This document shows positions 2,653 to 21,289 of a stretch of DNA of 21,289 nucleotides, piece after piece; the stretch's first letter is position 1, and each line of letters opens with the position of its first letter. Source of the DNA: a virus; the IMG/VR virus record IMGVR_UViG_3300045954_000063, positions 1-21,289 of that record; one strand, given 5' to 3'. The translations under genes were made by a program, and so were the position numbers. The notes under the pieces are model-generated. The model ran no database searches. It had not been told where the DNA came from and worked only from the letters and a program-made list of their open reading frames with translations.

Positions 2653-2840
2653 TCCGTTTTGGCCATCGGTTTACGGATATTGAAAACTATACGGCTGCTC
2701 AAATTAGATTGTTTGAGCAGTCGATAATTGCTATAGAATCTCAAGAAAGAATAGCCAGAATTCAAGATACTTCTATTGGGTCAAATGGTACGGAAAAATC
2801 AATTAAACAAACAATCAAATTGTTAGAAAATTATGGCTGA
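2227..2840 (+). CDS. G-T tail assembly chaperone fusion made by -1 programmed frameshift
   Basis: The frame one base behind the G frame is open from before 2523 to a TGA at 2838-2840 and has no ATG, GTG or TTG start in its first two-thirds. A canonical slippery heptamer T TTT TTC (2553-2559) is in phase with the G codons (gaT TTT TTC). A -1 shift there would join 111 G codons to 93 T codons, a 204-aa fusion. The T part contains an aromatic/basic block (DWGLKVSRLIRFGHRF) and a helical C-terminus, looking like a real protein domain, and it fills the 2653-2832 gap that would otherwise be empty. It overlaps the TMP start by 8 bases, which would couple TMP translation to it. G plus G-T upstream of the TMP is the conserved arrangement of long-tailed phages. 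The exact slip site is inferred. Confidence 0.72.
2553..2559 (+). promoter_or_regulatory. Ribosomal -1 slippery heptamer (T TTT TTC)
   Basis: This is the only canonical X XXY YYZ heptamer I found in phase in the region where the G and T frames overlap. Weaker candidates are A-AAA-ACC near 2609 and C-TTA-AAG near 2635. Confidence 0.6.
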
Positions 2841-5800
2841 CTATCGCGGTTTCCAAGGGGTCGTAGCAGCAATTGAACGGTTAAAGGAAACGGTTCAATC
2901 GGAATCAGCCGCCAATTCACTTATCAGTCGCGCTATTAGGGCGGATCTAAGAACCCAGATATCAGTCGTTAATCGCTTAGAAAAACTTGTACTAGGGGTT
3001 AAGCAATCAATTAAAACCCCTAGTACAAAAGTTAATTCCTTTGTCAGCAAAGATTTGGGACAACAAATCGGGTTACAAATTGCCAAGGAATTAAGGGCTA
3101 AGCCAGTGAACGTGAAGATCCAAGAATCTTTATTTGGGGCAATAACTAGGGGTGCTAAAGAAGGCTTAGGGCAAGGATTTAGTTATCAGATTGTCAAGGG
3201 GTTTGATAAGGCTGTAAAGCGGAATATTGGGGTTAATTTTGAATCGGCTGGTTTTGGTGCGGGTAATGTAGCGACCAATCCAAGACAAGCAATTGTCGAT
3301 GCAATCAAGAGCAGAAAGGAGTGGCAAGCCAAAAATAAAGGTTTGAGAGAAGCTTTTCGGTTATCAAAAACAGAAAATCCTGATATTAAAGCGGATAAAG
3401 AAAATATTTTTGTTGTTGGAGGGGCTGATCAAGTAGAGGGAAGGGGGGGAATAAATGTTAAGAGGAAATTGATTAACCAGTTAGGGCGAGACAAAAATAT
3501 AATTCCAGTAGAAAATAAAGAATCAGATGTTAGTTTAAGCGATCAAGAATCAGCTTTCATTAATAGCATTTCTAACACTTCAAATAGAGACGATTTTCAA
3601 TCTTTAGGCAGAAGTGTAAAACTAGGAGTAACTCAATTAAATCAAGGTTTGATCAGGGGTTACAATAATGATGCCGTTAAGTTAGCCAGCAAAGTTATTG
3701 CAGCTAAAAGAAAAAACCCTAACGCAAAAATAAAACTAGCTGGTTATTCTGATGGTGGACGAATAGTCGATGAAGCTATTGCCATATTAGAAAATGCAGG
3801 AATTAACGATGTAACGGGGGTAGGAATTGGAACTCCAGAAATAGGAACATCTATTGCTAAAAAGAACTATCAGGGTTTCTTAGGAGAAAAAGATCTAGTT
3901 AGAAAGAATTTCCCTATGGTTTTATTTCCTAATAAAAAAGCTGAACAGGAAAGGCTATTAAACTTAAAAAATCAACCAAATGCAGATTTATCTGGACATG
4001 ATTTATCAGAATATTTGAATCATCTTACTGTCATGAAAGAGGGTTTTAATTCTATAGGCTCTCAAGCCGAAGGAGAAATTAAAACTTATTTAAAAGGCAT
4101 AACAGAATATTTTGAAAAAGTCAAAGAACAAATACAATCAATTAAATCTGACACAAATATAGAACCAGTAAAAGCAGAAAAAATAAAAGAGGCTTTTGTT
4201 AAAGAATTAGACCAAATTGGGAAAGAACTAGAAAATGGACTAAAAGAAATATTAAAGGTTGACTCCAGTAATAGCCTTGCAACAGAAACTGAAAAATTAA
4301 TTTCTCAGCAAAAAAAACTAAAAGCACAAGGTTTAGAAGTAATTAATAATAAATTAAATCAACCTAGTAACGCTCCATCAAAATTATCTCTTAAAGATAA
4401 ATATACTATCGCTCTCGATAAATTTATTAAAGATGCTCAAAAGACGGCAGAAGCTAAAATTAAAGGCATTATTCCTAATTATTCCGATTTAACCAGTAAT
4501 CAAAAACAACAACGGGCTAGAGAATTTTCTGCACAATTAAACAAAGATGTCAAAAAATTCAGAGACGCAATTATTAATAAAGATAGGGAGTTAGCAAAGG
4601 AATTAGGGGAAAAGATTTTAAAAGATTCCCAAGCTATCAAAAAAGTATATGATGATTTAATTGAAGTTTTACCAGAAAATAGCCAGGATTTGCGAAGTGT
4701 GCGGGGGCTGAAAGGAAACCTCACGGCTATTCAAAGCGAGGTCATCAAGGGGTCTAAAGGGAAGGGACGGGCCCAAATTGGTTTGACTCAATTAATTGAT
4801 GAAGCCAACACTACTGGAGTTGATGTCAGTAGGGGCTTTAATCAAGGCATTGAAGACAGTTTGGCAGAAATTGAAGCAGCAGGGGTAGACTTAGGAGAAA
4901 CGGCTTTACAAGGGGCTAAGGATGCGTTAGATATTGCCTCACCTTCAGGAAAATTTGAGGATGTTGCTGAAAACTCAGTTCAAGGTTACATCAATGGTTT
5001 GAAAGCAAAAGCAGGAGCTTTAATTAATAATGTCAAAAATTTATTTTCAGGTGCGGTAGATGGTGCAAGAGGTGGCAGTCTTGATAGTATTGGGGAAGCT
5101 GTAGGAGATGTAGATTTAACAATTTCTAGTTTAATTAATCAAGCTTCAGAATCAATCAATGGCTTTTTTAATTCTTTGACTGAAAAATTTCCTATACTTG
5201 GAGAATTCAAAGATTTATTGATTGGTGTTGGTGCTTGGTTTGCTTTTAACCAAATTGTAGAAACTATTGTTGGTTCCCTAACTCAATTAGCTAATAGCAG
5301 TTTTTATGCTGTTGTTCAATTTGAAGGAATACAACGAGCCATGACGGCTTTAACGGGAAGTTCTCAAAAAGGAGGCAAAGGGTTAAATTTTGTTTCTAAA
5401 GAAGCTAGGAGATTAGGACTTGATTTAAAAACAGCAGAAGAAAATTATTTGGGGTTAGTTGGGGTTACTCGTTTTACGCCTTTAGAGGGATTTCAAACCA
5501 ATAAATTATTTTCTACTTTATCAAAGACAGCAGCAATTAGAGGCTTATCAAATGAGCAACAGTCTAGAATGTTTGCAGCTATTAACCAAGCAATTTCTAA
5601 AAGAAAATTAAGTGCTGAGGAAATAAGAGGACAATTAGGTGAAATTCCTGGTTTAGCTTTTGAATCAACTTTGGCAAGAAGTTTAGGGGTTAGCCCCTCC
5701 CAATTAAATCAATTGATGGAGCAAGGGTTATTTGCTGAAGATGTTTTTCCTAAAGTGGTTGCACAATACGCAGCAGAAAATAACGCAATCTCAGGCATTT

Positions 5801-8800
5801 CTGAAACAACAACCCAATCAATTAATAGGTTAAATAATGCCGTTTTAACTTTACAAAGAGGCTTTGCTGGTTGGGTTGAAGGAAGCAAAGTGTTAATTGA
5901 GGTTTTAGCTAATATTGTTGAGTTTGTTAATAAAAATAGTGCTGGACTGGTTAAGTTCTTATCCGTCGCCACCCTTTACGCATTTTCAGAAGCGGTAATA
6001 TTTATCGGTAAGGTTTTAACCAAAAGTGTGACGGCTCAGACACTTTTTGCTCAAGGATTTTTGTTATTAAAGTCAGCAATTAGAGGTTTAATCCCTGAAT
6101 TAATTAATTTCTTAAAGCAATTTATTTTATTAACCTTGGCTATAGAAGCATTTAGCAATGTTTTGACAATTTTAAACAATGGTTTTCCTGAATTACAAAA
6201 AGATATTGAAAAAACTCGTAATCGTGTAGAAAGTTTAGAAGCGGCGTTTAACAAATTAGCTAAAGCAGGAGAAGCGGCTAACAAGAATCTTCCCATTAGT
6301 GATCAAGATGTTTGGACTGATAGATCCTTAAATATTTTTGGCTGGAACACTGGGTTAAAATTAGAGCCAATTAGAGACGTATTAGGACTTAAAACTTTAG
6401 GAGCTAAAGAGGCTGAAGATTTCCAAATTGGGGTCAGTAATTTAGTTACTGGGATTGATAGCAACCTGAACAAAGATTCTCAAGCTAAGCAGCAATTAGC
6501 AAGAGTTCAAGAAATTGACAAACAGTTAAACATAGTTAGATCAAGGCGGTTTAACATTCCTTTAGGAGATAAAGATGCTTATAATAAATCACTGGAAACA
6601 GAGAATAAGTTACTAGAAAAGCGCGATGAACTATTAAAAGTAACGGCTCAATTTCAAAGCAATTTAGAAGCGGATAGAACAACCGTAGTTAAATATTTAG
6701 CTTTGTTAGATGAGTTAGCAGGAAAACAAGGCATTACCCGCGATGCAGAAGCACAAATCAGACAAAGTTTAGAAAGTCGTCTCAAGGATATTGATCAGAC
6801 AAAATCAACCTTTGAAGATTTGACTAGCAGCCTAGAAAGAAATATTAACGGCATTCAATTAGCTTTAAGAAACCTTAACGAGCAAGCGGCCTATTTCAAT
6901 GAAACTTTAGAACGCAATGCCACTAACGCCCGTGTGTCCTTTGTCAGAAGGGCTACTGGGAACAATACGGGGTCATCGGTCATTGGTTTGGGGCAGAACG
7001 AGTTAGAACAGCAAACCTTAGAAGCTCGGGCCGTATTTTTGGGTGATCAGTTAGGCGCGATCGCAAAGCTTTTGAGTGACCCCCAGTTTTCCAGTGTACT
7101 AGGGGAATTGCAGGGTCAGGCACAAGGTTTAGGGTTGAACCTTGAAAACACCGCGACCATTGACCGCCTGTTGCAAGAGGGCCGCAGCGCACAAGAAACG
7201 GCAGTATTAAACGCCCTGAAGCAGCAATTAGACCTTAAGAATCAATTGGGTCAAACTGAGGAGCAATTAGCGCAATCAATTCTTACCCAGAAAAACGCTT
7301 TGTTTGACTTCAATCGCACTGTAACCGATTATTTTTTCAATTTATCTCAACAAATAAAAGAGGCGCAAATTGAGACAGGACGGTTATTAGAGCAAAGTAA
7401 AACTACCGATCTCAAAACAAAGTTACAACGGGCTTTAGTGCCGGGGTCAGACACTTTTATTAATGGTTTGATTGGTCAAATTCAGGGGATTTTTGATGAA
7501 GCTGCATCTATCACAGAAAGGCTTTTTGGTCAGCAATCGTCGGTCATTCAGTTTCGGGGTGAACAGCATAGTTTAAATGCCCAACTGATAGACTTTACTC
7601 GTAATGTTAATGGGGCATCAGAAGCGGTCAAACAGTTTGCTGATGCTTTATTAGGAAGAACGGGGCAAAATACAAGTAGTAATCAACAGTTGACAGGAAA
7701 TGCCCTACCCGTTCCTGTTAATGCTCAAAACCCTCCAGGGGCAAGGGGACAATTGCCACCGCCACCGCCCCTATCCACCACAAACAACTTACGGGTGTCC
7801 TCACAAAGAAACCAAACCCCTAGTAATGCCTATCAGCCCTTTTTTCACCTGTTATTTAAAGGAGAAGGAAACATCAATTCAGCCAACAGGGGAAGGGCGG
7901 GAGACACTCCTGGCGGTTTTAGGGCAATTTTTGGGCGTAATGCGGATGAAATGACGTTAGGAGAAGTCTTGCAAGCACAAAGATCAGGCAAGGTTTTTGC
8001 TGTAGGCTTTCCCCAATTCATTCCTGGTACTTTAAGAGAAGCCGCGACCAGGACAAAAATTCCCCTGAACACTCCTTTCAACCGTCAGACTCAAGAAGCT
8101 TTGGCCATTGACTTGATCAACAATAAACGCCCTAACATTGGCCGGTATTTGAGGGGGGAGTCAAACAATTTAACAGAAGCTGCTCAAGATGCGGCTAGAG
8201 AATGGGCTGCGATCGGCTTGACTTATCCTGAAGCTGGCCGTGGTGTAAATCGTAGTCGTTACGGTGGTTTTGGGGGTAACGCCGCGTCAATCACTTCCCA
8301 GCAAGTTCAACAAGCATTACAGCAAGTTAGGTCCAACCTACAAACCCCTAGTACAACTACAAACAATTCAGTGTCTTCTCCAGACCCCCTAGTACAACAG
8401 GCAACTAACGCAACCAATACCCTAATTAACTTCAAAGGGGCTAACTTAGACTTACAAAATGCAGCTAACCGTCAAGAAATAGAGAAGTTTATTCTTAATC
8501 TAATTCAAACCAGAGAACAGATTCAAAGACAATTAGAAGACAGTTTAAGGAATACTAATAATCAAGTAATTGATGCCACTAACCAGCTAGAAGATATTAA
8601 ATCCCAGTATTCCCCTGCTACTCAAACCAGTGAGTTTGAGAAAGAAGCAAGGGCAATGGAGACTCAATTTAGAACTTTTGACAATCAATTGTTTGAACAA
8701 GAGAGAAGCTTATTAGAAAATATTAGGGGAATACAACAGTTTTCAACTCAGTCTCAAGAGGCAATTAAGGTTTTAAGGGGTACGGGTTCCCCCATTGATG

Positions 8801-10272
8801 CAGAGCAAGCAAACTTTTTAGAATCTTTAACCCCCCAGTTACAGAAAGATTTAGGGGTTTATCAGGGCTATGTTCAACAAATTCAAGCTGTCAGAAAAGA
8901 GTTGAGAGATGCCAAAGTTGACGCTAATAATTTTGTGGTAGCACAAGCACAATTAAGAGCAATTCAAAAAGAATTAGACACTTTAGGTAAAGAAGTTCAA
9001 TTGTCACAACAAAATTATAACTTTGAGTTAGAAAGAAGCGTATCCTTAGCACAGTCAAACTTACAGTTACAAAAAGACGAAATAGGAATTACACAAGACT
9101 ATGCTGATAAACCACAAGAAATGGCAAGGCAGTTAGCTATTGTCAGGGAACAAGCAAGATTAAGAGAGATTGACATTGAATACAATGTAAAAAATAATCA
9201 GTTAACCCGTCAATTACAACAAGTTAACCGAGAATTAGCTAATGTTCAAAAAACCGCTAATTTAGAAAAACAAAAAGAATTAGAGTTCATTCAATCTCAA
9301 TTACAGTTAGAACAAGAAATATTACAAATTAAGAAAGAATACCCTAATTTAGCACAACAGGAATTAGAAATACAGAAAGCACAAGAAGCGGCGCGGTTAA
9401 GAGAAATTGATATTAATAATCGGATTAATTCCGAAAGAATTAACCGACGGTCACAAATTAGAGATTTAGATAGTCAAATTGCTGAAAATGAAGCTAGACT
9501 AACCAGTGACCCTTTTGCTGCCAATGACATCAGAGAAGCTAACGCCCGTGAGAATGAAAAATTAAGGTTTGATCAACAAGTTGAACAGTTCACTCAACAA
9601 TATGCTGGCAATCCTGAATTGTTAAATCAACGCATTGGGAAAGCCTTAACAATCCATCAGCAGAACCTAGAATTAATTGACCGTCAATACTTAGATTTGG
9701 GTCAAACCATAGGCAGTAGTGTTGTTAATTCTGTAGGTTCCTTTATTGATGCTTTACGCAATGGTCAAAACGCCTTTGATGCGTTTATTGACAGTGTGTT
9801 ACAAGGTTTGGGACAAATTGGCTCTAATCTTATTGTGAGTTCAATTCAGGGGCTTTTCGGCTTTAATGGTGGGGGGTTTGCTGGAGGATTTGCTGAAGGG
9901 GGAACCGTTGCTGATGCTTTAAGAAAAGAGGGCCCCAATGGGGTGTTAGCTGTTTTCACCCCTGGGGAAGAAATTCTTAGCCTTAAAACAGGAGAAGCGC
10001 AACGTTATCAAGGGTTAAAAGAAATTTTTGGCAACAATCCTTTAAAACAGATTAATTTTTATAAAAATGGGGGGACAGTTGAGGGAAACCTGTTAAATAA
10101 TATAAGTGTACCATCACCGAGGCTAAACATTGATGATCGTCCTAGCAATCAAACAGTTAATAATTCTCGCAATTCTACAATTAATATTAATGTTACCAGT
10201 CCTAATGCTAGTTCCTTTGCCAAGAGTGAACGGCAATTAGGTCGATTGATTAGGGAGTATGAAAACCGATGA
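2833..10272 (+). CDS. Tail tape measure protein with embedded alpha/beta-hydrolase and lysozyme-like domains
   Basis: This 2479-aa protein sets tail length and is likely delivered into the host envelope. Order of regions: residues about 188-395, an alpha/beta-hydrolase fold (strand FVVGG at 193, nucleophile elbow GYSDGG with S306, then GTPEIG, D354 in GEKDLV, H389 in SGHDLSEYL); 400-640, coiled coil; about 830-1010, the conserved TMP N-terminal-type domain (FEGIQRAMTALTG, then LSAEEIRGQLGEIPG); hydrophobic helices at about 795-820 and 1030-1120; a proline-rich linker near 1640; about 1665-1796, a lysozyme/muramidase-like domain with candidate catalytic E1678 in KGEG and a GFPQFIPGT motif; 1860-2290, long coiled coil in which a segment containing ARLREIDI recurs after exactly 79 residues; then a glycine-rich hydrophobic C-terminus. 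The start overlaps the chaperone frame by 8 bases and the end overlaps the next start (ATGA). The TMP role is secure; the enzyme domains are motif-based. Confidence 0.93.
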   Translation: MADYRGFQGVVAAIERLKETVQSESAANSLISRAIRADLRTQISVVNRLEKLVLGVKQSIKTPSTKVNSFVSKDLGQQIGLQIAKELRAKPVNVKIQESLFGAITRGAKEGLGQGFSYQIVKGFDKAVKRNIGVNFESAGFGAGNVATNPRQAIVDAIKSRKEWQAKNKGLREAFRLSKTENPDIKADKENIFVVGGADQVEGRGGINVKRKLINQLGRDKNIIPVENKESDVSLSDQESAFINSISNTSNRDDFQSLGRSVKLGVTQLNQGLIRGYNNDAVKLASKVIAAKRKNPNAKIKLAGYSDGGRIVDEAIAILENAGINDVTGVGIGTPEIGTSIAKKNYQGFLGEKDLVRKNFPMVLFPNKKAEQERLLNLKNQPNADLSGHDLSEYLNHLTVMKEGFNSIGSQAEGEIKTYLKGITEYFEKVKEQIQSIKSDTNIEPVKAEKIKEAFVKELDQIGKELENGLKEILKVDSSNSLATETEKLISQQKKLKAQGLEVINNKLNQPSNAPSKLSLKDKYTIALDKFIKDAQKTAEAKIKGIIPNYSDLTSNQKQQRAREFSAQLNKDVKKFRDAIINKDRELAKELGEKILKDSQAIKKVYDDLIEVLPENSQDLRSVRGLKGNLTAIQSEVIKGSKGKGRAQIGLTQLIDEANTTGVDVSRGFNQGIEDSLAEIEAAGVDLGETALQGAKDALDIASPSGKFEDVAENSVQGYINGLKAKAGALINNVKNLFSGAVDGARGGSLDSIGEAVGDVDLTISSLINQASESINGFFNSLTEKFPILGEFKDLLIGVGAWFAFNQIVETIVGSLTQLANSSFYAVVQFEGIQRAMTALTGSSQKGGKGLNFVSKEARRLGLDLKTAEENYLGLVGVTRFTPLEGFQTNKLFSTLSKTAAIRGLSNEQQSRMFAAINQAISKRKLSAEEIRGQLGEIPGLAFESTLARSLGVSPSQLNQLMEQGLFAEDVFPKVVAQYAAENNAISGISETTTQSINRLNNAVLTLQRGFAGWVEGSKVLIEVLANIVEFVNKNSAGLVKFLSVATLYAFSEAVIFIGKVLTKSVTAQTLFAQGFLLLKSAIRGLIPELINFLKQFILLTLAIEAFSNVLTILNNGFPELQKDIEKTRNRVESLEAAFNKLAKAGEAANKNLPISDQDVWTDRSLNIFGWNTGLKLEPIRDVLGLKTLGAKEAEDFQIGVSNLVTGIDSNLNKDSQAKQQLARVQEIDKQLNIVRSRRFNIPLGDKDAYNKSLETENKLLEKRDELLKVTAQFQSNLEADRTTVVKYLALLDELAGKQGITRDAEAQIRQSLESRLKDIDQTKSTFEDLTSSLERNINGIQLALRNLNEQAAYFNETLERNATNARVSFVRRATGNNTGSSVIGLGQNELEQQTLEARAVFLGDQLGAIAKLLSDPQFSSVLGELQGQAQGLGLNLENTATIDRLLQEGRSAQETAVLNALKQQLDLKNQLGQTEEQLAQSILTQKNALFDFNRTVTDYFFNLSQQIKEAQIETGRLLEQSKTTDLKTKLQRALVPGSDTFINGLIGQIQGIFDEAASITERLFGQQSSVIQFRGEQHSLNAQLIDFTRNVNGASEAVKQFADALLGRTGQNTSSNQQLTGNALPVPVNAQNPPGARGQLPPPPPLSTTNNLRVSSQRNQTPSNAYQPFFHLLFKGEGNINSANRGRAGDTPGGFRAIFGRNADEMTLGEVLQAQRSGKVFAVGFPQFIPGTLREAATRTKIPLNTPFNRQTQEALAIDLINNKRPNIGRYLRGESNNLTEAAQDAAREWAAIGLTYPEAGRGVNRSRYGGFGGNAASITSQQVQQALQQVRSNLQTPSTTTNNSVSSPDPLVQQATNATNTLINFKGANLDLQNAANRQEIEKFILNLIQTREQIQRQLEDSLRNTNNQVIDATNQLEDIKSQYSPATQTSEFEKEARAMETQFRTFDNQLFEQERSLLENIRGIQQFSTQSQEAIKVLRGTGSPIDAEQANFLESLTPQLQKDLGVYQGYVQQIQAVRKELRDAKVDANNFVVAQAQLRAIQKELDTLGKEVQLSQQNYNFELERSVSLAQSNLQLQKDEIGITQDYADKPQEMARQLAIVREQARLREIDIEYNVKNNQLTRQLQQVNRELANVQKTANLEKQKELEFIQSQLQLEQEILQIKKEYPNLAQQELEIQKAQEAARLREIDINNRINSERINRRSQIRDLDSQIAENEARLTSDPFAANDIREANARENEKLRFDQQVEQFTQQYAGNPELLNQRIGKALTIHQQNLELIDRQYLDLGQTIGSSVVNSVGSFIDALRNGQNAFDAFIDSVLQGLGQIGSNLIVSSIQGLFGFNGGGFAGGFAEGGTVADALRKEGPNGVLAVFTPGEEILSLKTGEAQRYQGLKEIFGNNPLKQINFYKNGGTVEGNLLNNISVPSPRLNIDDRPSNQTVNNSRNSTININVTSPNASSFAKSERQLGRLIREYENR
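2987..3028. repeat. 14-bp perfect inverted repeat within the TMP gene
   Basis: TTGTACTAGGGGTT (2987-3000) and AACCCCTAGTACAA (3015-3028) are exact reverse complements separated by 14 bases. Each arm contains the octamer CCCCTAGT that recurs across the tail genes. The repeat lies in coding sequence for residues 52-66 of the TMP. Confidence 0.9.
7057..7064. repeat. HIP1 octamer GCGATCGC
   Basis: A perfect copy of the highly iterated palindrome of cyanobacteria, within the TMP gene. It supports a cyanobacterial host. Confidence 0.85.
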
Positions 10273-11114
10273 AAATATCAACAATATCAGCTAAATTAAA
10301 AGCTGAATCCCCCACATTAACAAGAATCTGGAAAATAACTAATGGGCAAGGAAGTTTAGGGTTTACAACTTTTTCTCAAGATTTAACTATTGATGGGCTT
10401 TTGTACAAAGCCTCTTTAGGCTTTAATCCTACTGACATTGAATCCTCTGTTAATGACCCTTACAACATGGAATTAACCTCAATTCTTAATGAAAATGGGA
10501 TAACTGCCATTGATTTAAGTTCTGGTTTGTTTGATTATGCTGGTGTTTTAGTAGCGTTAGTTGACTATACTAATTTACCTAGTTCATTAACAGTAAATCC
10601 CCCTCAACATTTAGCTTTATTTTCAGGAAAAATCAATAAAATTAGTTACACCGAAGACAATTATACAGTTGAGTTAATGAGTAAAGCTAACTTATTAACA
10701 GGTAAAACTAACTGGGTCACATCAAAAACCTGTCGCTACAGATTTGGGGATGAAAAATGCGGGTACGATATTTCTGTTCAAAAAGATACTTTGTCAGTTT
10801 CAGCCCCAGGTAGTGACAATTTTCACTTTACCAGTGGCACATCTTTTTCTGATGATTTGTATACGGGTTCAACTCTGACCTGGACTACTGGGGACAATAC
10901 CGGACAAATTTTAAGAGTGATGAAATCTAATGGGCAAAATTTCTTTACTTTGACCCCTACGGTTAACCCGATTAAAGCAGGGGACAATTTTCAGGTTGTC
11001 AAGCAGTGTAACAAAACAATTGTTGACTGCAAAAAATACAGTAATTTCTTGAATTTTGGAGGGGAACCGGATTTGCCAGGAATTGACCAATACTACTCAA
11101 ACGAAGCGCAATGA
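10269..11114 (+). CDS. Tail hub protein, DUF2163/BR0599 family (GTA gp13 / lambda gpL-like)
   Basis: This 281-aa protein forms part of the tail tip ring between tube and central hub. The N-terminal two-thirds is a beta-rich DUF2163 domain. The C-terminal part is the diagnostic BR0599 region, with a TGDNTG turn, a GD-F-V-K-QC strand, and the ending NFLNFGGEPDLPG. Four cysteines, C155, C164, C247 and C254, pair as C-x8-C and C-x6-C, the pattern of the iron-sulfur binding segment known from lambda gpL and GTA hub proteins; a [4Fe-4S] cluster is therefore likely. The gene overlaps TMP by ATGA and the following peptidase gene in the same way, so all are translationally coupled. Family recognition is strong; the cluster is inference from family knowledge. 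Confidence 0.87.
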   Translation: MKISTISAKLKAESPTLTRIWKITNGQGSLGFTTFSQDLTIDGLLYKASLGFNPTDIESSVNDPYNMELTSILNENGITAIDLSSGLFDYAGVLVALVDYTNLPSSLTVNPPQHLALFSGKINKISYTEDNYTVELMSKANLLTGKTNWVTSKTCRYRFGDEKCGYDISVQKDTLSVSAPGSDNFHFTSGTSFSDDLYTGSTLTWTTGDNTGQILRVMKSNGQNFFTLTPTVNPIKAGDNFQVVKQCNKTIVDCKKYSNFLNFGGEPDLPGIDQYYSNEAQ

Positions 11115-11536
11115 CCTTTCAATCAATAATCATTGGGAAAGCCCGTGAATATTTGGGAACGCCCTATCATCATCAGGGTAGAGTCAAAGGTGCGGGTATT
11201 GATTGCGCGGGGCTGCCCATCTGTGTGGCCCGTGAGTTAAACCTGAGTAATTACGATGTTGATGGTTATGGTCGTGATGGAAGTGGTGTGGGGTTGAAAG
11301 AAGCTTTTGACTTCAACTGTATTGCCAAATCAACCTTTGATTTGGGTGATATTGTCCTTTTGAGGATCAGGTATCACCCTCAGCATTGTGGCATCATTGC
11401 CACTGATAATGAATCAAATTTCACTTTGATCCATGCTTGTCGTTCCCGTCAAAAAGTGGTTGAGGTGATCTTTGGTCAATGGTGGCGCGATCGCTTAATT
11501 GCTTGCTACGAATTCCCTAACATTCACCAGCTATGA
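11111..11536 (+). CDS. Tail-tip NlpC/P60 cysteine peptidase (GTA gp14 / lambda gpK-like)
   Basis: This 141-aa peptidase probably cleaves peptidoglycan stem peptides when the tail crosses the cell wall. The catalytic cysteine lies in GIDCAGLP (C32), the general-base histidine in QHCGI (H92) and a third polar residue in LIHAC (H108), the usual order and spacing of NlpC/P60 domains. The N-terminus ARxYLGTPYHHQG is the standard first helix and loop of this family. Length equals that of stand-alone GTA gp14-type proteins; there is no JAB/Mov34 domain as in full-length lambda gpK. It overlaps both neighbours by ATGA and sits right after the DUF2163 gene as in gene transfer agents. A HIP1 octamer lies near its 3' end. 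Confidence 0.9.
   Translation: MTFQSIIIGKAREYLGTPYHHQGRVKGAGIDCAGLPICVARELNLSNYDVDGYGRDGSGVGLKEAFDFNCIAKSTFDLGDIVLLRIRYHPQHCGIIATDNESNFTLIHACRSRQKVVEVIFGQWWRDRLIACYEFPNIHQL
11487..11494. repeat. HIP1 octamer GCGATCGC
   Basis: A perfect HIP1 copy inside the NlpC/P60 gene. Confidence 0.85.
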
Positions 11537-13164
11537 CAAATTTTTCGGAAACGCTTTTAGACCTTGGCTACGATTACGGAACCGTCGCCACTCTTAACTT
11601 CAAGACTACCATCACTGAAACATCGGACGGTAGTGAGCAAAGGATGGCAATATGGGATCAGCCGTTGCTTAGTTTTGAGGTGGGGCAGCAAGATTTGGAC
11701 AACGACGAATTAGCTTACCTTCAAGGGTTTTTTGATGCGCGGCGGGGGAGTTTGGAGGGGTTTTTGTTTCGGGATTGGTCAGATTATCAGGTAATTTCTC
11801 AATTACTAGGGGTTGCGAATGGTAGTGTTAACCAGTTTCAGATGTACAAGTCCTACAGGATAGAAGATGCCATTGTCAACCGCGCCATCACCAAACCAAG
11901 AGAAGGAACTTTAAAAATTTACCTCAATGAAGTGGAGATGACATCGGGTTATGTCTGTGATTTTACTAGGGGGATTGTTACCTTTGAATCACCCCCGACG
12001 GGTAACTTGACTTGTGATTTTGAATTTGATGTTCCTGTGAGATTTGTTCAGGATCGGATTGATTACCGATTTAATGCAATTGAAGCTGCAACGGGGTTGA
12101 AAATTTACAGCCTAGAAAAATTATCTTTAATCGAAATTAGAGAAACTTTAACGGACAACTCACGGGGCGGAAATAGTTCCGCCCCCGTGTCCTCAACTTT
12201 AACCATTCCTTTTACCGCCCCTAATTCTAATTTGGGGACTATTATTGACTTGGGCTATGATTACGAAACTTTAGGGGGTGATGCTTACAATACAACGATT
12301 AACTCTGTATTTTCTGGTTTTGAGACTAGGCGTAGCAATTGGGTAAATGCTAAAGGTAGTTATGACGTAGGACAGCGAACTTTAGTTAGAAGTGAATTAA
12401 ATCAATTGATTGCTTTATTTAGAATTTGTCGAGGGCAATTTACCAGATTCTTTTACAAAGATTGGAAAGATAACGATTTTAAAGTAGTCAGATTTGGAGA
12501 AGATTCTATTAGCTTTGTTTTTAAAGCAATTAATAGAACGACTAAAGAGGTTATTTTTGATTTATCAGGGGTTGCCCTAATTAGAGTTTCTGCCATTCCT
12601 ACTGATTCTTATTTGATACCCTTGTTTGATACCAGTGGCTCAATGGGCGATTCTATTCCTTTTATTGAGCAAGCTTTAGAAGATCTAAGACCTTTGCTAA
12701 AACAAGCTGTTTATCTGACTGATGAGGCAACAAATAAATACTTTTTGCAACCGTCCAATTTTGGTGATGAAAGATATTTAAAAAGAATGGCGCAAGATTA
12801 TCGCTATTCAGAATTAGACAGAAAAAGGTTTATTTTTCTAATTTTTGAAAATGAAGCTAATCCCGTTTATCACGGTACAACTAGAAATTTAAACAATGAA
12901 CCTACTGAAACCTATTTAACTGATTTAGCCGATTTTCAAGAAGCTTATGCTGACATTGAATTTTTCAAAGCTTTAATTGTGATTCCTGTTCCTGATCCCA
13001 TTGAACAAAGAATAGAAAGCTTTATCGGTCAAGTGTCTGATGCTATTGGGGGAACTAATGGTTATACTCCCTTGAGTCAATACAATGTCTCAAAAGAGGT
13101 TTTACCTGATGATACAACCGCAAGCGTCTATCTAGGTTTGCTGTTAACTTATTTGCAACTATAA
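11533..13164 (+). CDS. Distal tail protein: two DUF2460 domains fused to a von Willebrand A domain
   Basis: This 543-aa protein has three parts. Residues 1-205 form a full DUF2460 (TIGR02217) domain: SDGSEQRMAIWDQP, the FFDARRGS and FLFRDWSDYQ motifs, and a C-terminal strand set ending FDVPVRFVQD. A low-complexity linker (207-225) encodes a palindromic DNA repeat. Residues 230-355 form a second, more divergent DUF2460 copy (ETRRSNWVN, YDVGQRTL, FTRFFYKDWKDNDF). Residues 360-540 look like a vWA domain: a hydrophobic strand leads into DTSGSMG (D366, S368, S370), the metal-binding MIDAS motif, followed by an amphipathic helix and later strands (RKRFIFLIF, FFKALIVIPV). DUF2460 proteins form the distal tail ring in gene transfer agents; vWA domains commonly bind protein ligands through Mg. 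An adhesion role is inferred. The stop overlaps the convergent minus-strand gene by 6 bases. Confidence 0.82.
   Translation: MTNFSETLLDLGYDYGTVATLNFKTTITETSDGSEQRMAIWDQPLLSFEVGQQDLDNDELAYLQGFFDARRGSLEGFLFRDWSDYQVISQLLGVANGSVNQFQMYKSYRIEDAIVNRAITKPREGTLKIYLNEVEMTSGYVCDFTRGIVTFESPPTGNLTCDFEFDVPVRFVQDRIDYRFNAIEAATGLKIYSLEKLSLIEIRETLTDNSRGGNSSAPVSSTLTIPFTAPNSNLGTIIDLGYDYETLGGDAYNTTINSVFSGFETRRSNWVNAKGSYDVGQRTLVRSELNQLIALFRICRGQFTRFFYKDWKDNDFKVVRFGEDSISFVFKAINRTTKEVIFDLSGVALIRVSAIPTDSYLIPLFDTSGSMGDSIPFIEQALEDLRPLLKQAVYLTDEATNKYFLQPSNFGDERYLKRMAQDYRYSELDRKRFIFLIFENEANPVYHGTTRNLNNEPTETYLTDLADFQEAYADIEFFKALIVIPVPDPIEQRIESFIGQVSDAIGGTNGYTPLSQYNVSKEVLPDDTTASVYLGLLLTYLQL
12154..12189. repeat. Palindromic repeat inside the DUF2460-vWA gene (copy 1)
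   Basis: GACAACTCACGGGGCG (12154-12169) is identical to 19786-19801. It continues into a near-perfect hairpin, CACGGGGCGGAA (12161-12172) with TTCCGCCCCCGTG (12177-12189), one bulged base and a 4-base loop. In the protein it encodes the linker between the two DUF2460 copies. Confidence 0.75.
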
Positions 13165-14322
13165 GGCATAACTAATAGCAATAATACTATTATTAGGAAT
13201 CGAACCAGAAGACAAAGGTGTAACTGTTCCTTCAGTTAAATTAACCGTAAAATCAGTATTTAAAACAAAAGTTGTATTAGCATTGTAGACATAGTAAACG
13301 GCCGATAAATTATTGTCGATGGCAATGGCTTGGTTTAAAACAGCATAAGTCCTTTTGATTCGACCAATGACATGGCCCATATCTCCCACATCCCCAGACA
13401 AAATCAATTCCTCATAGGACAAAATACGTTGACCGATTTCAGCATTTCTTATTCCACTTTTTGCGTATTTAACAATTCCTCTGGTATACAAGGGAACCCC
13501 AATGATTTTGTTAGCTTTCAAACCAGAACCTGTTGAGCCATAAACATTAACTGCACCCCGTCCTGACACCAAATAATAAGGACAAGGCACGGGTTTGTTG
13601 TTGACCCCATTAAAAAACCCGTTGCTTTGGTAATAGGCCATATTGGTCGAAGTTGTGACATCGTTATCACCACTTAAGGCGTACACCCCGTTTGTCACAT
13701 AATCAAGCATCCCCCAGGGACGGTTAGCCGTCCCAGATGTTAGCCAGTTCACTGCTGAGGAATAAGTATCTTTTACCGCGTGCCATTTAACAGATTGAGT
13801 GTGAAAATCTCTAGCTAAATAAGTTTCTAACCATCCGCTATTAGTCAAAAGACCGCAAGAAATGGCGTACAAATCGCTGTTTGCTGCCCTTTTTGTTAAA
13901 AAGCCAAAATGCGAACCTGTCCAGGTACTAGGCACATCATTTGCATTAAAAATGCTGAAAGAAGCCGCGCTTTTGTCGCAACCTAAAAATAAATAAAAGT
14001 CATTGGTTGCCGAATAAGGCAGCAAAATATTAGGCGATAAAAAAGTATTTGTCCCGTCAAAATCTCCGTTTAAAATGATGTTTTTTGTTCCCGAATTGTT
14101 GGTTAATTTGACCCAGCAATTATCTGTACGAATAAAGCCACCAAATTCATCATAAACATCATACTCCCCCTTAGCCACAAAAAAACTGGGAATGCTGTTG
14201 TTAGTAATAGTCCATCCTGCTGACTGTAAAGCGTCTTTTAGTCCATTTAAGACATCTTCCCCATCGTTGCATAACGTCCCAAAAAAATAAGGAGGTTGTC
14301 CCTGTAAAAAAACTTCTGGCAT
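13159..14322 (-). CDS. Tail fibre/tip-like protein (putative)
   Basis: This 387-aa protein is of no family I can name with certainty. I start it at the ATG at 14322-14320, because it overlaps the stop of the upstream gene (TAATG) and has purine-rich GGGGAG and AAAGG stretches just upstream; an in-frame ATG seven codons earlier (14343) is possible. The sequence is rich in Gly, Ser, Asn and aromatic residues with few charges, typical of surface-exposed phage fibre or tip proteins. The C-terminal 40 residues (NTDFTVNLTEGTVTPLSSGSI) share a module with the tail tube protein and the hub protein. It is the last gene of a three-gene minus-strand operon led by the hub gene and converges on the DUF2460-vWA gene with a 6-base overlap and no terminator between them. 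Role inferred from context and composition. Confidence 0.6.
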   Translation of the reverse strand: MPEVFLQGQPPYFFGTLCNDGEDVLNGLKDALQSAGWTITNNSIPSFFVAKGEYDVYDEFGGFIRTDNCWVKLTNNSGTKNIILNGDFDGTNTFLSPNILLPYSATNDFYLFLGCDKSAASFSIFNANDVPSTWTGSHFGFLTKRAANSDLYAISCGLLTNSGWLETYLARDFHTQSVKWHAVKDTYSSAVNWLTSGTANRPWGMLDYVTNGVYALSGDNDVTTSTNMAYYQSNGFFNGVNNKPVPCPYYLVSGRGAVNVYGSTGSGLKANKIIGVPLYTRGIVKYAKSGIRNAEIGQRILSYEELILSGDVGDMGHVIGRIKRTYAVLNQAIAIDNNLSAVYYVYNANTTFVLNTDFTVNLTEGTVTPLSSGSIPNNSIIAISYAL

Positions 14323-14543
14323 TAGTAAACCTTTACTCCCCAATTAAATAAAAGAACTTTGTGACCTTCTAAATGTAATTCGTCTTCTGTTATGGCAAAA
14401 TTAGCCGTAATTAAAGGAGGAAAAGCAGGAAAAAATTTAACAAAACTTTCTTCAAGCAATAAAGATGAGTCTCTATCGGTAATTTTAATCAAGGTATTTG
14501 TTCCTTGATTACCTAATGTTTGCGGATAAGTAATAATGGTCAA
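14322..14543 (-). CDS. Small protein of unknown function in tail-tip operon
   Basis: This 73-aa protein, not recognised, lies between the hub gene and the fibre-like gene. It appears to start with TTG at 14543, overlapping the stop of the hub gene (TTGA), and ends in TAATG overlapping the next start, so all three minus-strand genes are translationally coupled. It contains a central hydrophobic/proline stretch (FVKFFPAFPPLITANF) and an acidic segment but no signal peptide or clear membrane helix. Its position suggests a tail-tip accessory or fibre assembly protein, which is inference only. Confidence 0.55.
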   Translation of the reverse strand: MTIITYPQTLGNQGTNTLIKITDRDSSLLLEESFVKFFPAFPPLITANFAITEDELHLEGHKVLLFNWGVKVY

Positions 14544-17239
14544 GATTCGTAAACTCCATTTATGGCAAAATCATACTGGGTTCCACTATATTTTATGGTT
14601 ACTCTTCTCCATTGATCAACTAAACTTAATTTTACTTTAACATCACCTTGAGCTATTTCTTTAATGTTTAATGCCAGAGAACCATTGCCAGTATGTAAAA
14701 TTTCAAAGCTGGTTTTTGTCGTGGGATTAGAAGGCAAAATAATAGTCCTGTCTGTTCCTGTTGGTGCTAGATGTTGATGGTAAAAATCGTTATTAGTTAG
14801 CTGTTTATCTTGAGACAAACTTTGTATATTGAACTGAAATCTATCAAAAATAATTAAGAATTCAGTAGTTGATTGTCCCGTCCCTCCTGGGGACGTAACT
14901 GTAATTTTGCCTGTAACGGTATTACTGGCCAGGGTAGCGGTGATCTGCTGGTCGCTGTTAATCACAAAACTGGTCACAGCTATTCCTCCGACGGTGACGG
15001 CTGTTACATCGGTTAATCCTTGTCCAAAAATCTTGACCTGTTCGCTTACTCCTCCCTGAGTCGGGCTAAACCCGCTAAGTATGGGGCTTGTGACTTCAAA
15101 AGCATTTCCTTGGATCAGCAAGCTAACGGGTGAAACATCTTGCAAGGTTTGACCGGCTGAAACCGCCTTAAAGTAAAGAGTTTTTCCAATATCACTTTGG
15201 GAACCGGTCAAAATCAAACGATAGCCACTGAGTAAATAAAAGGTTTCGTTGCCCCCATGATTGTTCACCCGTCCATAAGTTCCCCTTAAACCCCTAGTAA
15301 GACCTGATAACCGATAATTGCGACCGCCTTGTCCCGTAACCCCTAGTAAAGTTGCCGTCTTGAAGTCCAGAATCTCATTACCCACCAAAGCCCTATTTAC
15401 TCCCAATTCAAAATCAGTCTGGGATATAGTGGCCAGTTCAGCATGACTGGGAATGGTGATATCAAGGGTGTTAGTGGTATCAGTAGAGGATAGGGGCGTG
15501 TGACCCCCTAGTACAGTTTGACAAGTGCCAAACACTGATCTGGTGATCAGTGATCCTGCAAATTCAAAAGTTGCTTGATTATTGCGGCTTACATAAACCG
15601 CCGCATTTCTCCAACTGCTGTCTCCATCCCCAAAGACATATAATCCTTTATTATCGGTGTCATAGGCTGTTGGGATGTCCAAAACTCTCAGGGTGGTATT
15701 ACTAGGGGTTGGCAATGGGGTACTTTTGGGAATTGCCGGCCCCGATGTAGTAATGGTCACTACTGTCCCGTTGCTAATACTTCCCCCATTAAGGGGCGTG
15801 ATTGTGCCATTGGTCAAGTTGACGCTGTAATCAACCCCTTGGGTGTAAGTTGTTTGTCCCGATGTGACAGTCGTCACCCCATAGATTGTCCCCAGTGAGA
15901 TTGGACTGCCTTTAGTGGCTGTTCCGGTAAAAATGTTTTCGGAAGGAGAAGTATAGTCAAAGCCAAAAATTTGCGCTTGATATTGCCAAGATTTAATTGT
16001 GACCAGATTAGATGTCGTGATTCCCAGTTCCTTGATCTGGATCATTTTTCTCACTTGATTGATCTCAATTTCAACTACGTCCCCAGGTTCTAGAACAGCG
16101 TAGCGCAAATTAAGAGAAAATTCTTGAACGTAGGATCGTTGCCAGCTTAGCCACAATAATTGGTTGACAATCCGTTTAGCCTCGTTAGCCGTCAAGCACC
16201 CTGAATAATCAATTGTCACTTGGTTGATATTTTCTTCTCCAAAAACAGGCGATCGCTCAACGGCTGCTAAAAGATTGTTGTCAAAATCGAGGTACTTGAT
16301 CTCATATTGAGTTGGTAAGGTTGTCGGATCTAATCGGGTTTCTTTGTATTTACTGGGTTGTCCTTCCTCACTCCCTGGTACATGAGCGGCTAAATGTCCA
16401 GGGGGAATATAGGTCAAAGATTCTGCCCTATATTGCTTTTTGAATACTAATTTATCTCCTGAATCAATTAGGTCAAAGAAAAAAACTTGACTTAATTGAT
16501 TAATTTTTTCTTGGGGTGATAAAGCATTATCAACTTGAAAACCCAAAACGTTAATATTGCTTAAATCTGAAACATCAATATCAGTTTGAGACAAATTAGG
16601 AGATTCTAAACAAATATCCTGAATAATGTCTGACAACTTTGGTTCTCTATTTTGAATAATGGCAGAAGCCTGGGGATAACCATTCCCAAAATCAGCTAAA
16701 GGCAATCTTTCAATAACAATGTAAGCCCTATGTCTATAGGGAATTTGATTTGCAACTCCTCCCAAAAATTGATCTATACTTTGGGTAGGCGTTCCTTCAA
16801 AAAACCTAGCAGAACAGCCTTGACTCGCATATTTATCGTTTAACTGTCCATCTTTCCAAAACAGTTTTCCGTTTAATCTTAATTCTTTTAAAGAATTTTG
16901 TTGTACTTCTTGAGAAAACATAAAAGCACAATCGCCATAATAGCTATAGGTCTTTTCTTCTGTAACGGTTGTTCCCCCACCTTTTCCCCCTGTAGTTTGA
17001 CTACTGGTACTGGTAGAAACTTCTTCTTTAGGGGGAAATGTTCCGTAAATCAAAATACCAGAAACTCGACCTCTACCCCAAATTTTAGTAATATAATCAC
17101 CATAGCTAGATCGGGGTTCGCTAAAGGTTTCCTGCTTATTTCTATCAACAGACTGAAAAGTTTTTTTGTTTGGGGCTAAAGCACTACTTATTAAGCCCGT
17201 TCCTACTGTTATAACCGTTCCTATCAGAAAATTAGCCAT
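14540..17239 (-). CDS. Central tail hub / host-specificity protein, GTA gp15 and lambda gpJ-like
   Basis: This 899-aa protein is the likely central fibre or hub that closes the tail and contacts the host. The N-terminal region has a hydrophobic start (FLIGTVITVGTGLISSAL), then SYGDYITKIWGRGRVSG, a glycine-rich insertion (GGKGGG, about residues 84-89) and YSYYGDCAFMFSQ, the pattern of hub proteins related to GTA gp15. The middle (about 230-420) matches Phage-tail_3-type regions: SPQEKINQLSQVFFFDL and VLEPGDVVEIEI. A shared NLTNGTITPLNGGSI module lies near residues 470-505. Residues about 716-796 form an IPT/TIG immunoglobulin-like domain (SGFSPTQGG, ITVTSPGGTG), followed by a C-terminal beta domain. 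It is about a third shorter than many GTA gp15 proteins, and I see no N-terminal TIM-barrel domain. It is the first gene of the minus-strand block, oriented against the rest of the tail genes. Confidence 0.8.
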   Translation of the reverse strand: MANFLIGTVITVGTGLISSALAPNKKTFQSVDRNKQETFSEPRSSYGDYITKIWGRGRVSGILIYGTFPPKEEVSTSTSSQTTGGKGGGTTVTEEKTYSYYGDCAFMFSQEVQQNSLKELRLNGKLFWKDGQLNDKYASQGCSARFFEGTPTQSIDQFLGGVANQIPYRHRAYIVIERLPLADFGNGYPQASAIIQNREPKLSDIIQDICLESPNLSQTDIDVSDLSNINVLGFQVDNALSPQEKINQLSQVFFFDLIDSGDKLVFKKQYRAESLTYIPPGHLAAHVPGSEEGQPSKYKETRLDPTTLPTQYEIKYLDFDNNLLAAVERSPVFGEENINQVTIDYSGCLTANEAKRIVNQLLWLSWQRSYVQEFSLNLRYAVLEPGDVVEIEINQVRKMIQIKELGITTSNLVTIKSWQYQAQIFGFDYTSPSENIFTGTATKGSPISLGTIYGVTTVTSGQTTYTQGVDYSVNLTNGTITPLNGGSISNGTVVTITTSGPAIPKSTPLPTPSNTTLRVLDIPTAYDTDNKGLYVFGDGDSSWRNAAVYVSRNNQATFEFAGSLITRSVFGTCQTVLGGHTPLSSTDTTNTLDITIPSHAELATISQTDFELGVNRALVGNEILDFKTATLLGVTGQGGRNYRLSGLTRGLRGTYGRVNNHGGNETFYLLSGYRLILTGSQSDIGKTLYFKAVSAGQTLQDVSPVSLLIQGNAFEVTSPILSGFSPTQGGVSEQVKIFGQGLTDVTAVTVGGIAVTSFVINSDQQITATLASNTVTGKITVTSPGGTGQSTTEFLIIFDRFQFNIQSLSQDKQLTNNDFYHQHLAPTGTDRTIILPSNPTTKTSFEILHTGNGSLALNIKEIAQGDVKVKLSLVDQWRRVTIKYSGTQYDFAINGVYES
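16249..16256. repeat. HIP1 octamer GCGATCGC
   Basis: A perfect HIP1 copy inside the hub gene. Confidence 0.85.
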
Positions 17240-18356: not shown

Positions 18357-19568
18357 TTAAAACACGATCTCATCTCGCAATTTCTGAAACAATATCCTGG
18401 TTGCCATGAAGGAAACGCGGGTTATAGCGTCTTTACCGCTTGCTTTGTCGTTATCCTTCATATCATCCCATTTAGCCCCTAAATACTCCCCTAAATCGTT
18501 TCTTAATCTACTTGTTGACCGCGTAGTGACTCTGGCAAGCACCCAAGCGTAAAACTTGGATCTCAGTAATTTAGACCCTGACCATTTAATTTTCTCCTTA
18601 CCCCCTGACTGTTCTATACGGCGTGAAAGCCCAAAATAAGCCTGGAAATGCTGCAAGCTGATATTTCTTTTCTGCCAGTGATTAGATCTGCTCAAATACC
18701 GTTCAATATGAGGAAATCCATTAACTAGGAACTTCTCAAAGGGGAACACTTTGTACAAAATTAAGCCTTTCAGTCCAATACCAAAGTTAAATGGTTCTAA
18801 TGCCCTTAAATACGGGATAAACAACGGATTATCAAAGGCTTTAAGCAATTTTCCTTCAATCTCAAGCTGTCTAAGTTCCAAGGAATGATGTAGATCCGCG
18901 TGTTCTTTGGTGTAACAGCTAAAGTTAATTCCTAAGCGTTTCGCCACCGAATCATTGTATTGTCGATCTCTCATTGCCTTGACTTGTTTACCAGCCATCC
19001 ATGCTATTGCCTCGATGTACCCTTTACCGCTTGGTTTCCAAGTAAGAGCAGCTAATTCTGGGAATTCATAGGATAGACGCTGTTGTAATTGGTTTCCCAC
19101 TGCATTGATCAGCTTGTCAACCTGATAGTATTCTAGAACCAACTCACGCAAGGGCCAAACTTCTCTAATAAGATGTCCAGGTAAAAACCGCCGCCGCCCA
19201 AATTCATCAATCCATTGCGGGTCAAAGTAGGAAGCGGCTAGACACAAAGCATCATTGTCATCGTACTTGTTGGGAAACCCAAAGTGACCCCGTTGAGATT
19301 TTAAATCCGCGTGACCAACCCAATAAACGGGAATGTCATGAACTTCGCCGAATTTAGCCCAAATTTGGCTATACCAGCCCCCTGTAGGTTCCATTACTAA
19401 ACCTGTCGGGTTCATATTAAGCAATTGGTCAAAATCTTTGTGAGAAGGCTTGACCCTGAAAATAGGATGATCAGGCTTTTTGAGGTAAGCTTTGATATTT
19501 TCAGGCATAGCAACGAGTGGACAAACAACGGCTAAACCATTGCGCCCGATATCCATACCAATGATCAT
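18357..19568 (-). CDS. IS110-like DEDD recombinase (transposase)
   Basis: This 403-aa protein starts at ATG 19568 (an in-frame TTG at 19580 is an alternative). The N-terminal RuvC-like fold has all four acids of the IS110 DEDD set: D6 in IIGMDIG, E60 in VMEPTGG, and D103/D106 in NKYDDNDALCLA, corresponding to the K-x-D-x-x-D-A motif. The C-terminal half has the Tnp_20 signature: YFGLSRR, then EQSGGKEKIKWSGSKLLR with the candidate catalytic serine S321. IS110 enzymes use this RuvC plus serine pair with a bridge RNA for seekless insertion into target DNA. The sequence is divergent from typical IS110 members, especially the middle. It lies between the lysis-like pair and a replication helicase gene, oriented with the latter. 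Key residues are present, so it may be active. Confidence 0.78.
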   Translation of the reverse strand: MIIGMDIGRNGLAVVCPLVAMPENIKAYLKKPDHPIFRVKPSHKDFDQLLNMNPTGLVMEPTGGWYSQIWAKFGEVHDIPVYWVGHADLKSQRGHFGFPNKYDDNDALCLAASYFDPQWIDEFGRRRFLPGHLIREVWPLRELVLEYYQVDKLINAVGNQLQQRLSYEFPELAALTWKPSGKGYIEAIAWMAGKQVKAMRDRQYNDSVAKRLGINFSCYTKEHADLHHSLELRQLEIEGKLLKAFDNPLFIPYLRALEPFNFGIGLKGLILYKVFPFEKFLVNGFPHIERYLSRSNHWQKRNISLQHFQAYFGLSRRIEQSGGKEKIKWSGSKLLRSKFYAWVLARVTTRSTSRLRNDLGEYLGAKWDDMKDNDKASGKDAITRVSFMATRILFQKLRDEIVF

Positions 19569-19650
19569 GGAGTTATACAAGAACTATTGCATTGATCCAA
19601 CTTTTGCAACGCTTAAAAAGGTTACAATACTCCCCCAATCCCTCACTAAG

Positions 19651-19877: not shown

Positions 19878-21289
19878 TTAAGTGTCAAGGCAAGGTTGAA
19901 CTTCTCTAATATCGTTGATGCCTACTTTTTGGGTTTGAATCCAGTTAGGTTTTGTGATCTTTATGATGGCTAAGCCATCCTCATGATCAAAGCCAATGAA
20001 CCTCAACTCAGTGGCGTTTTTAGCACTTTCCTTTACTATGGGGTCTTTCCCTATATACTCAACGCAAAAAGTCTCATCGATTGGGTCGTTAACAATTGTT
20101 TCTTGGGGTTCCCCTTCCCATGCCAAGAAAAATGACCAGGTGTTTTTGGTTGAGTCCTGTTTTTCTCGTTGTATAATACCATCAGTAGAAAGCTGAAAAG
20201 TAGTTTTACGAATTGTGTTGTAAGGTACTCCCAACTCGGAACTAATATCTTTATTAGTCAAGGGGGTATTTCTGTTTTTGCTCAAAAATTCGACTACTTG
20301 TTCTTTTACCGGAGCAATTGGATCTGGTTCTTTTGAGTCTTCTCCCAAAACCTCCCAACTCCAAGTGTGATCCTCCTCATTGACCTTGTACTCTAATTTG
20401 TACTTGGCAGGGCGACGAAAACGGCTTTTTTCAATGACCAATAATCGGTAAGGGCAAGTTACGTCAGAACCTTCTGACGGTTTCGACAAAGAAAGAACCT
20501 GGCTAACCGAGTTGTGGATCGCCTTGGTTCCCCTAGACTTTCCTTGGCCGTTGGAATGGTGAATCAAAAGTATGGTTACTCCTAATTCTTGCGCTAAATC
20601 TTTCAACTGTAAAATGGGTTTCGCGTATTCGGTCTCGTTTTCGCTAACAATTGAGCCTTTGCTTACGGTAGTAAGGGAATCGATGACAACGACCTCAATT
20701 TTGTGATCAATGATGTCTTTTCTCAAGGATGCCATGTGTTCGGTCGTCCACCGAGATTTGATGAATAAGGACGAGTGGCGTTCAATGCCACGCCCTTCTA
20801 AGTTTCGGATCAAGTCGCCTCTCGTTTCGTCCGTTTGAACTAGCAAGCAACGGCGGGTAGAAGCCGTTACGGGGAATTGTCCCCAAGGTGTACCAGTCAA
20901 AATACTGTTCACAAAATCATAGGACAGCTTGGTTTTACCTTCCCCGCCTAAAGCGTGAAGCATGAGGACAACTCCTTTAGGTAAAAGACCATGGAGAAAC
21001 CATTCTTTCGATTCATGCCCAAATTTTCCCTGAAAATCATCAGCCTCGTAAATGCGATCATTCTCATTGCTTAACAAAAATTTACAGTAAAGCTGTTCAA
21101 GGGTTTTCCTTGACATTTTTAATCGTTGGGATAGTCGAATCATCTTGTATTCTTTGACCACCAAATCAACGCAATTATTCTCAATTTCCCTGATTTCCTG
21201 TACAATCTTGTCCGTCATTCTTGTTTCCTCATCCTGGGTCAAATCCCCCCTGTATTTTGATTGAGTCAGTTCGTGAATTCTCTTTTCTA
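19878..21289 (-). CDS. RepA/DnaB-like AAA ATPase with winged helix, probable replication helicase (5' end outside window)
   Basis: The frame is open from the stop at 19878 to the right edge. A TTG at 21242 could start it, but the upstream codons also read like protein (KRIHELTQSKYRGDLT), so the gene probably begins beyond the window. The visible part has an N-terminal helical region; then a RecA-type ATPase (AAA_25/RepA-like) with Walker A GGEGKTK (20931-20948) and Walker B EVVVIDSL (near 20676-20696), and a later IHHSNGQGKSRGTKAIHNS segment typical of RepA/RadA-like motor domains. A winged-helix region follows (DISSELGVPYNTIRK), then a poorly conserved C-terminus. Such proteins serve as replicative helicases or helicase-primase partners of plasmids and phages. 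The upstream missing part might be a primase domain. ATPase identity is strong; the replication role is inferred. Confidence 0.8.
   Translation of the reverse strand, partial: EKRIHELTQSKYRGDLTQDEETRMTDKIVQEIREIENNCVDLVVKEYKMIRLSQRLKMSRKTLEQLYCKFLLSNENDRIYEADDFQGKFGHESKEWFLHGLLPKGVVLMLHALGGEGKTKLSYDFVNSILTGTPWGQFPVTASTRRCLLVQTDETRGDLIRNLEGRGIERHSSLFIKSRWTTEHMASLRKDIIDHKIEVVVIDSLTTVSKGSIVSENETEYAKPILQLKDLAQELGVTILLIHHSNGQGKSRGTKAIHNSVSQVLSLSKPSEGSDVTCPYRLLVIEKSRFRRPAKYKLEYKVNEEDHTWSWEVLGEDSKEPDPIAPVKEQVVEFLSKNRNTPLTNKDISSELGVPYNTIRKTTFQLSTDGIIQREKQDSTKNTWSFFLAWEGEPQETIVNDPIDETFCVEYIGKDPIVKESAKNATELRFIGFDHEDGLAIIKITKPNWIQTQKVGINDIREVQPCLDT

Follow-up and report, generated by a model that had tools for sequence, protein, structure and literature searches.

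Why does a phage tail protein carry two DUF2460 domains in tandem, and what is the vWA-like segment that follows them for? Both questions are raised by an open reading frame of 543 aa at 11533..13164 (+) in the window, by which we mean the whole stretch of 21,289 nucleotides analysed (IMG/VR record IMGVR_UViG_3300045954_000063). On the basis of the reading frame, profile matches, AlphaFold2 modelling and comparison with the PDB, we assign the product as a Dit-type distal tail protein with tandem DUF2460 domains and a C-terminal vWA-like domain. The overall reading that we favour, and hold to be fairly probable, is that of a cyanobacterial siphovirus Dit with tandem cores, assembled from three chains and ending in a vWA-like, exchangeable adhesion module. 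Receptor binding of cyanobacterial phages with GTA-type tails is little known, and at the C-terminus of the Dit, a defined site, putative host-binding modules can be identified and compared.

The duplicated DUF2460 domain and its tail module

Pfam DUF2460 (PF09343) matches the reading frame twice (1.4e-68, 230.9 bits against a cut-off of 30.4), as does NCBIfam TIGR02217 (160 bits against a cut-off of 136.65), and the two copies are 38% identical over 78 residues (E about 1e-10). The coordinates, the double matches to both profiles and the position of the DTSGSMG motif at residues 366-372 bear out the initial annotation, which had described a tandem DUF2460 protein with a DTSGSMG segment here. 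Copy 1 (aa 1-205; 11533..12147, +) is complete, has the R4C Dit as its closest solved fold (8gtc_G, Z 15.1) and contains a beta-rich insertion subdomain at about aa 86-168 (11788..12036, +), whose structural matches are tail and tailspike domains. A linker (aa 206-232; 12148..12228, +), with pLDDT below 50 in part, leads to copy 2 (about aa 233-350; 12229..12582, +), a ring core without the insertion subdomain, and then to the C-terminal module (about aa 356-543; 12598..13161, +). A frameshift or assembly artefact was set aside, since the frame is open and the architecture is identical in the loci L088 and L181; copy 2 as debris was also set aside, since ring-core residues are retained in about 25 relatives and most copy-2 rows form one tree group.

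The AlphaFold2 model was built from a 22-row alignment (mean pLDDT 78.7; about 68-94 for copy 1, 66-91 for copy 2 and 54-83 for the C-domain), a single-sequence run giving a pLDDT of only 31. Residues 5-354, which span both copies, align in one match each with JBD30 gp49 (VIA; Z 14.7) and the Chi tail-tip protein (Z 14.3), and in the model the first 350 residues are a tandem Dit resembling JBD30 gp49. Like the window Dit, these two solved proteins (8rk3, 8vjh) have two beta-sandwich Dit cores per chain; however, identity is 11-14%, neither JBD30 nor Chi has a vWA domain, and JBD30 gp49 differs in that each of its cores carries an OB domain and two further domains precede them at the N-terminus. 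Tandem Dits are already known from JBD30 and Chi, and DUF2460 is also present in two copies in Brevundimonas phage Bajun. The earlier statement that DUF2460 proteins are normally single-domain is thus accurate for GTAs and most of the proteobacterial phages compared, but needs qualification elsewhere. The DUF2460 Dit of RcGTA and R4C (Rcc01695; 6tba, 8gtc) shares with the window protein its profile family, its partners (hub, NlpC and megatron) and the fold of copy 1. In contrast to the window protein, it is single-domain (with six copies in R4C) and its gene lies between tape measure and hub, whereas the window gene is tandem, placed after NlpC, extended by a C-terminal module and accompanied by an inverted megatron.

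The tail module of the window comprises genes for a major tail protein (1448-2215), a chaperone (2227-2652), a tape measure protein, the long reading frame upstream of the hub (2833..10272, +), a baseplate hub protein assigned by profile TIGR02218 (10269..11114, +) and an NlpC/P60 tail peptidase, also assigned by profile (11111..11536, +), whose stop codon overlaps the Dit start. On the strand opposite to the Dit lie a facing gene for a probable fibre or adhesin with a C-terminus like a tail-tube domain (13159..14343, -) and the gene for a megatron-type tail protein (14540..17239, -). Single-DUF2460 relatives (L185, L281 and Microcystis phage L002) have tape measure, DUF2460, hub, NlpC and megatron in this order on one strand, and L184, also with a single DUF2460, has the same order as far as the locus reaches. 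Among the tandem loci, 18 have a visible megatron; there the Dit comes after the hub and, where found, NlpC, and in all 18 the megatron and the Dit are encoded on different strands.

This rearranged tail tip, a duplicated Dit behind NlpC facing an inverted megatron, occupies 11533-17239 of the window and is seen in L167-L183, L087, L089 and L268; L244, in a cyanobacterial genome, has a further arrangement in which hub and NlpC face the tandem Dit. A small tail-tube-type domain recurs within the window, at 1448-2215, at the C-terminus of 13159-14343 and at aa 440-497 of 14540-17239. The window represents a single, fragmentary record, and next to its tail module lies an insertion-sequence gene, namely an IS110 transposase (18357-19580, -) with relatives in 29 of 386 cyanobacterial genomes. 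A transposase-like reading frame, judged by eye, lies at the left edge (3-650, -), and 19878-21287 (-) encodes an ATPase-like protein that matches KaiC/FlaH and winged-helix domains weakly and may act in replication or regulation.

Scans led by an alignment detected a tandem Dit in about 25 further contigs, several of them cyanobacterial; when viral and genome contigs were scanned with one protein, either the whole Dit or the megatron, nothing was found. The tandem-Dit contigs include MAGs named Acaryochloridaceae, Myxosarcina and Xenococcus, and the hosts are therefore cyanobacteria at least in part. In the tree, all copy-1 sequences form one group (support 81/91) and 18 of the 22 copy-2 sequences another (100/99). 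The remaining four copy-2 rows belong to a Myxosarcina-type clade and are set apart by a long branch, so that a single duplication behind the tandem Dits of this lineage is likely from the sequences rather than proven.

The C-terminal domain and its metal site

The initial annotation had proposed a vWA fold for residues 360-543, and this gains support from the AlphaFold2 model (pLDDT about 54-83), whose top-ranked structural matches over this region are vWA chains: ITIH1 (Z 10.5), integrin alpha-L (9.9), integrin alpha-E (9.6) and PilB (9.2-9.4). Below these come PatB and SGNH-type esterases (Z up to 8.6) and flavodoxin (7.4); values under 8 may reflect a common arrangement alone, and the vWA matches exceed 8 by a margin that is not wide. 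The motif DTSGSMG (aa 366-372; 12628..12648, +) is placed at the end of the predicted first strand, and is kept in the independent homologue L088. An alignment of three members only (window, L088 and L181) aligns with cyanobacterial vWA profiles over beta1-alpha1 only (P 7e-5, compared with 0.37-0.82 for column shuffles). The vWA profiles PF00092 and PF13519 gave no match to the C-domain in the Pfam search, even at E 10, and a PDB sequence search with the C-domain gave none. The same fusion, for which a search in other cyanophage tails had been suggested, was found twice, in L088 and L181; further C-domain homologues were limited to L088's own genome among the 386 cyanobacterial genomes and to L181's contig among viral contigs, with none in phage records. 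With moderate confidence, the predicted fold of the C-domain can be called vWA-like.

Two other readings of this domain have to be weighed at this point. It could be an enzyme rather than a binding module, for example an SGNH-type esterase trimming host glycans, as the esterase matches of Z up to 8.6 might suggest; the vWA chains rank above these (9.2-10.5), and reading the three C-domain sequences revealed neither a GDS nor a catalytic D..H block, and we regard an enzyme as highly improbable. A metal-dependent adhesin, in which a working MIDAS would hold Mg or Mn together with an acidic residue of the ligand in the manner of integrin I domains and PilB, has more to recommend it, yet remains unlikely. 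In its favour are the vWA-like fold, the first MIDAS motif DxSxS (aa 366-370), present in the window and in L088, the complete MIDAS on the Dit of phage RcTitan, and PilB of Streptococcus sanguinis, a modular pilin that is directly involved in adhesion and includes a vWA module (PMC8179133). A chance origin of DTSGSMG was set aside: D.[ST]GSM occurs at about 0.004 per 543 aa among the ORFs compared, true vWA proteins counted in, and is thus too rare, besides being retained in a homologue. Against a working metal site stands the remainder of the MIDAS, whose Thr and second Asp were placed by the topology of the model rather than from a solved structure, the profiles aligning over beta1-alpha1 alone. 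The loop at 405-414, before a helix and strand beta4, where Thr would be expected (the PSNFGDER region), has an invariant Asp at 412 and no Thr, and just after the strand at 432-438, where the second Asp would be expected, the window has E439-N440-E441 with N440 invariant.

As modelled, then, a complete canonical MIDAS is not there in the window C-domain. The initial annotation had named the other MIDAS residues as the point on which its proposal of metal-dependent adhesion would turn, and at their expected places Thr and the second Asp are both missing. Metal-dependent binding is doubtful because of this incompleteness and because DxSxS has been lost in one of the two homologues (L181/L012); with the Pfam vWA profiles also silent, the proposal is not supported in the form in which it was made. 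Binding by the C-domain is probably independent of a complete MIDAS metal site.

Exchange of modules at the Dit C-terminus

The position occupied by the vWA-like domain in the window, L088 and L181 is filled differently in other members of the lineage. A legume lectin is found in L168, L171 and L176 (PF00139, 2.2e-16 for L176) and bacterial TSP3 repeats in L177 and L182 (PF18884, 2.1e-17 for L177), while several further modules have no convincing Pfam match, and L170, L172, L174, L175, L293, L268 and L089 have no or nearly no C-terminal module. Distribution of the modules can be set against the tree: copy 1 of the window Dit is sister to that of L179, which carries a different tail, and L088 and L181 fall in another fully supported clade with L268 and L089, both of which are without a module, L268 being the sister of L088 by copy 1. 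L088 and L268 also have a Dit N-terminal extension of about 140 residues (L088:7560-8000, L268:7632-8030) that is common to these two relatives only.

One exchange can be followed along the alignment. Identity between L176 (7974-9659) and L168 (7962-9674) is 52-67% as far as alignment column 240 and rises to 83-100% beyond it, including the lectin, and comparison of L176 with L174 (7941-8993) gives the reverse pattern around the same column. In this one case the alignment shows that recombination inside the second DUF2460 copy transferred the end of the copy together with its lectin module. Judged across the sequences compared, the Dit C-terminus of this lineage is shown as an exchange site at which lectin, TSP3, vWA-like and other modules interchange, and the end piece probably serves as an interchangeable means of gripping the host surface. 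A broader proposal, which we consider evenly balanced, is that cyanobacterial siphoviruses of a widespread lineage have, from copy 2 to the facing megatron, a stretch dedicated to the exchange of host-recognition modules. There vWA-like, lectin, calcium-repeat and other domains would be swapped by recombination, in convergence with the facing fibre genes. In two of the loci with tail-less Dits (L172:6472-7410, L174:8990-9973), a separate major-tail-protein-like gene lies downstream where other loci have the fused module.

Ring stoichiometry, adhesion and independent fusions

JBD30 gp49, with two beta-sandwich domains in each chain, assembles as a trimer and takes the sixfold tail to the threefold symmetry of the baseplate (PMC11445458). 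Roseophage R4C has 6 single Dits, 3 hubs and 3 megatrons, and its authors have proposed that extra Dit domains help host binding (PMC10276861). The suggestion that a duplicated DUF2460 would halve the copy number or form a pseudo-hexamer agrees with the solved analogue JBD30 gp49 and with the model match of Z 14.7 over both domains. By this analogy, the window Dit would be a trimer with side-by-side cores; its C-domain would sit at the tail rim and may bind the host. In our reading the gene encodes the distal tail protein of a cyanobacterial siphovirus with a GTA/R4C-type baseplate, in which two DUF2460 cores lie side by side so that three chains could close a ring under the sixfold tail tube, an arrangement that, on the JBD30 precedent, would fit a threefold hub and megatron. 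Copy 1 retains its outward insertion subdomain, and the vWA-like domain after copy 2 would be held at the rim, three per virion, as a first-contact adhesion module that may bind a host-surface protein or glycan before fibres and megatron commit to injection.

The alternatives to this arrangement concern the number of chains and the role of the C-domain. Six copies might form two stacked DUF2460 rings, copy 1 continuing the tube and copy 2 adding a further ring over the hub; the tail tip would then carry six of the C-terminal modules. The 27-residue linker could permit this, and single-DUF2460 Dits form hexamers (PMC10276861); the solved tandem Dit of JBD30 is, however, a trimer (PMC11445458), both model domains align with JBD30 and with Chi in one match, and stacking seems to us improbable. 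We are equally sceptical that the C-domain is an assembly part, such as a dock for the product of the facing fibre gene, that never touches the host: it is encoded beside facing genes that vary as well, and the JBD30 Dit helps to hold tail fibres (PMC11445458), but legume lectin and TSP3 repeats occupy the same place in relatives and some tandem Dits carry no module at all. Adhesion is the most likely function of the C-terminal module, vWA-like in the window phage, and the window protein is in our view best read as a Dit that forms a pseudo-hexamer and bears an adhesion module open to exchange, corresponding on the Gram-negative side to the evolved Dit of lactococcal phages.

Evolved Dits of lactococcal skunaviruses have carbohydrate-binding insertions that aid adsorption, as tested in those phages (PMC10688798). 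The likeness lies in a Dit that has gained an extra domain; the skunavirus host is Gram-positive and the domains are insertions, whereas in the window the module is fused C-terminally, after a tandem core. PilB (7b7p) similarly combines a filament protein with an added vWA module that is used for adhesion, but it is a pilin with a reported MIDAS (PMC8179133), the MIDAS of the window being incomplete.

A second vWA domain on a tandem Dit-like protein is found in gp22 of RcTitan (L336:17177-18904), a Titanvirus of Rhodobacter capsulatus. This is a YuA-type tandem Dit, encoded next to the tape measure gene, with a vWA domain of about 190 residues between its two Dit cores, where YuA gp72 matches both flanks and is without vWA. 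In contrast to the window protein, its MIDAS is complete (DVSGS 196, GGTTP 269, ITDAG 301), and its vWA domain shows no close relationship to the domain of the window protein (P 0.021 over 14 columns), so that the two fusions look independent; a vWA domain has probably joined a tandem Dit at least twice. More generally, both tandem Dits and fusions of vWA to a Dit probably have more than one origin, in the DUF2460 lineage, in JBD30/YuA-type Dits and in RcTitan, and this suggests that a threefold Dit, and adhesion domains of protein type at the tail rim, have been selected for. Proteins of the gp22 type in Titanvirus phages are annotated as hypothetical or as tail assembly protein.
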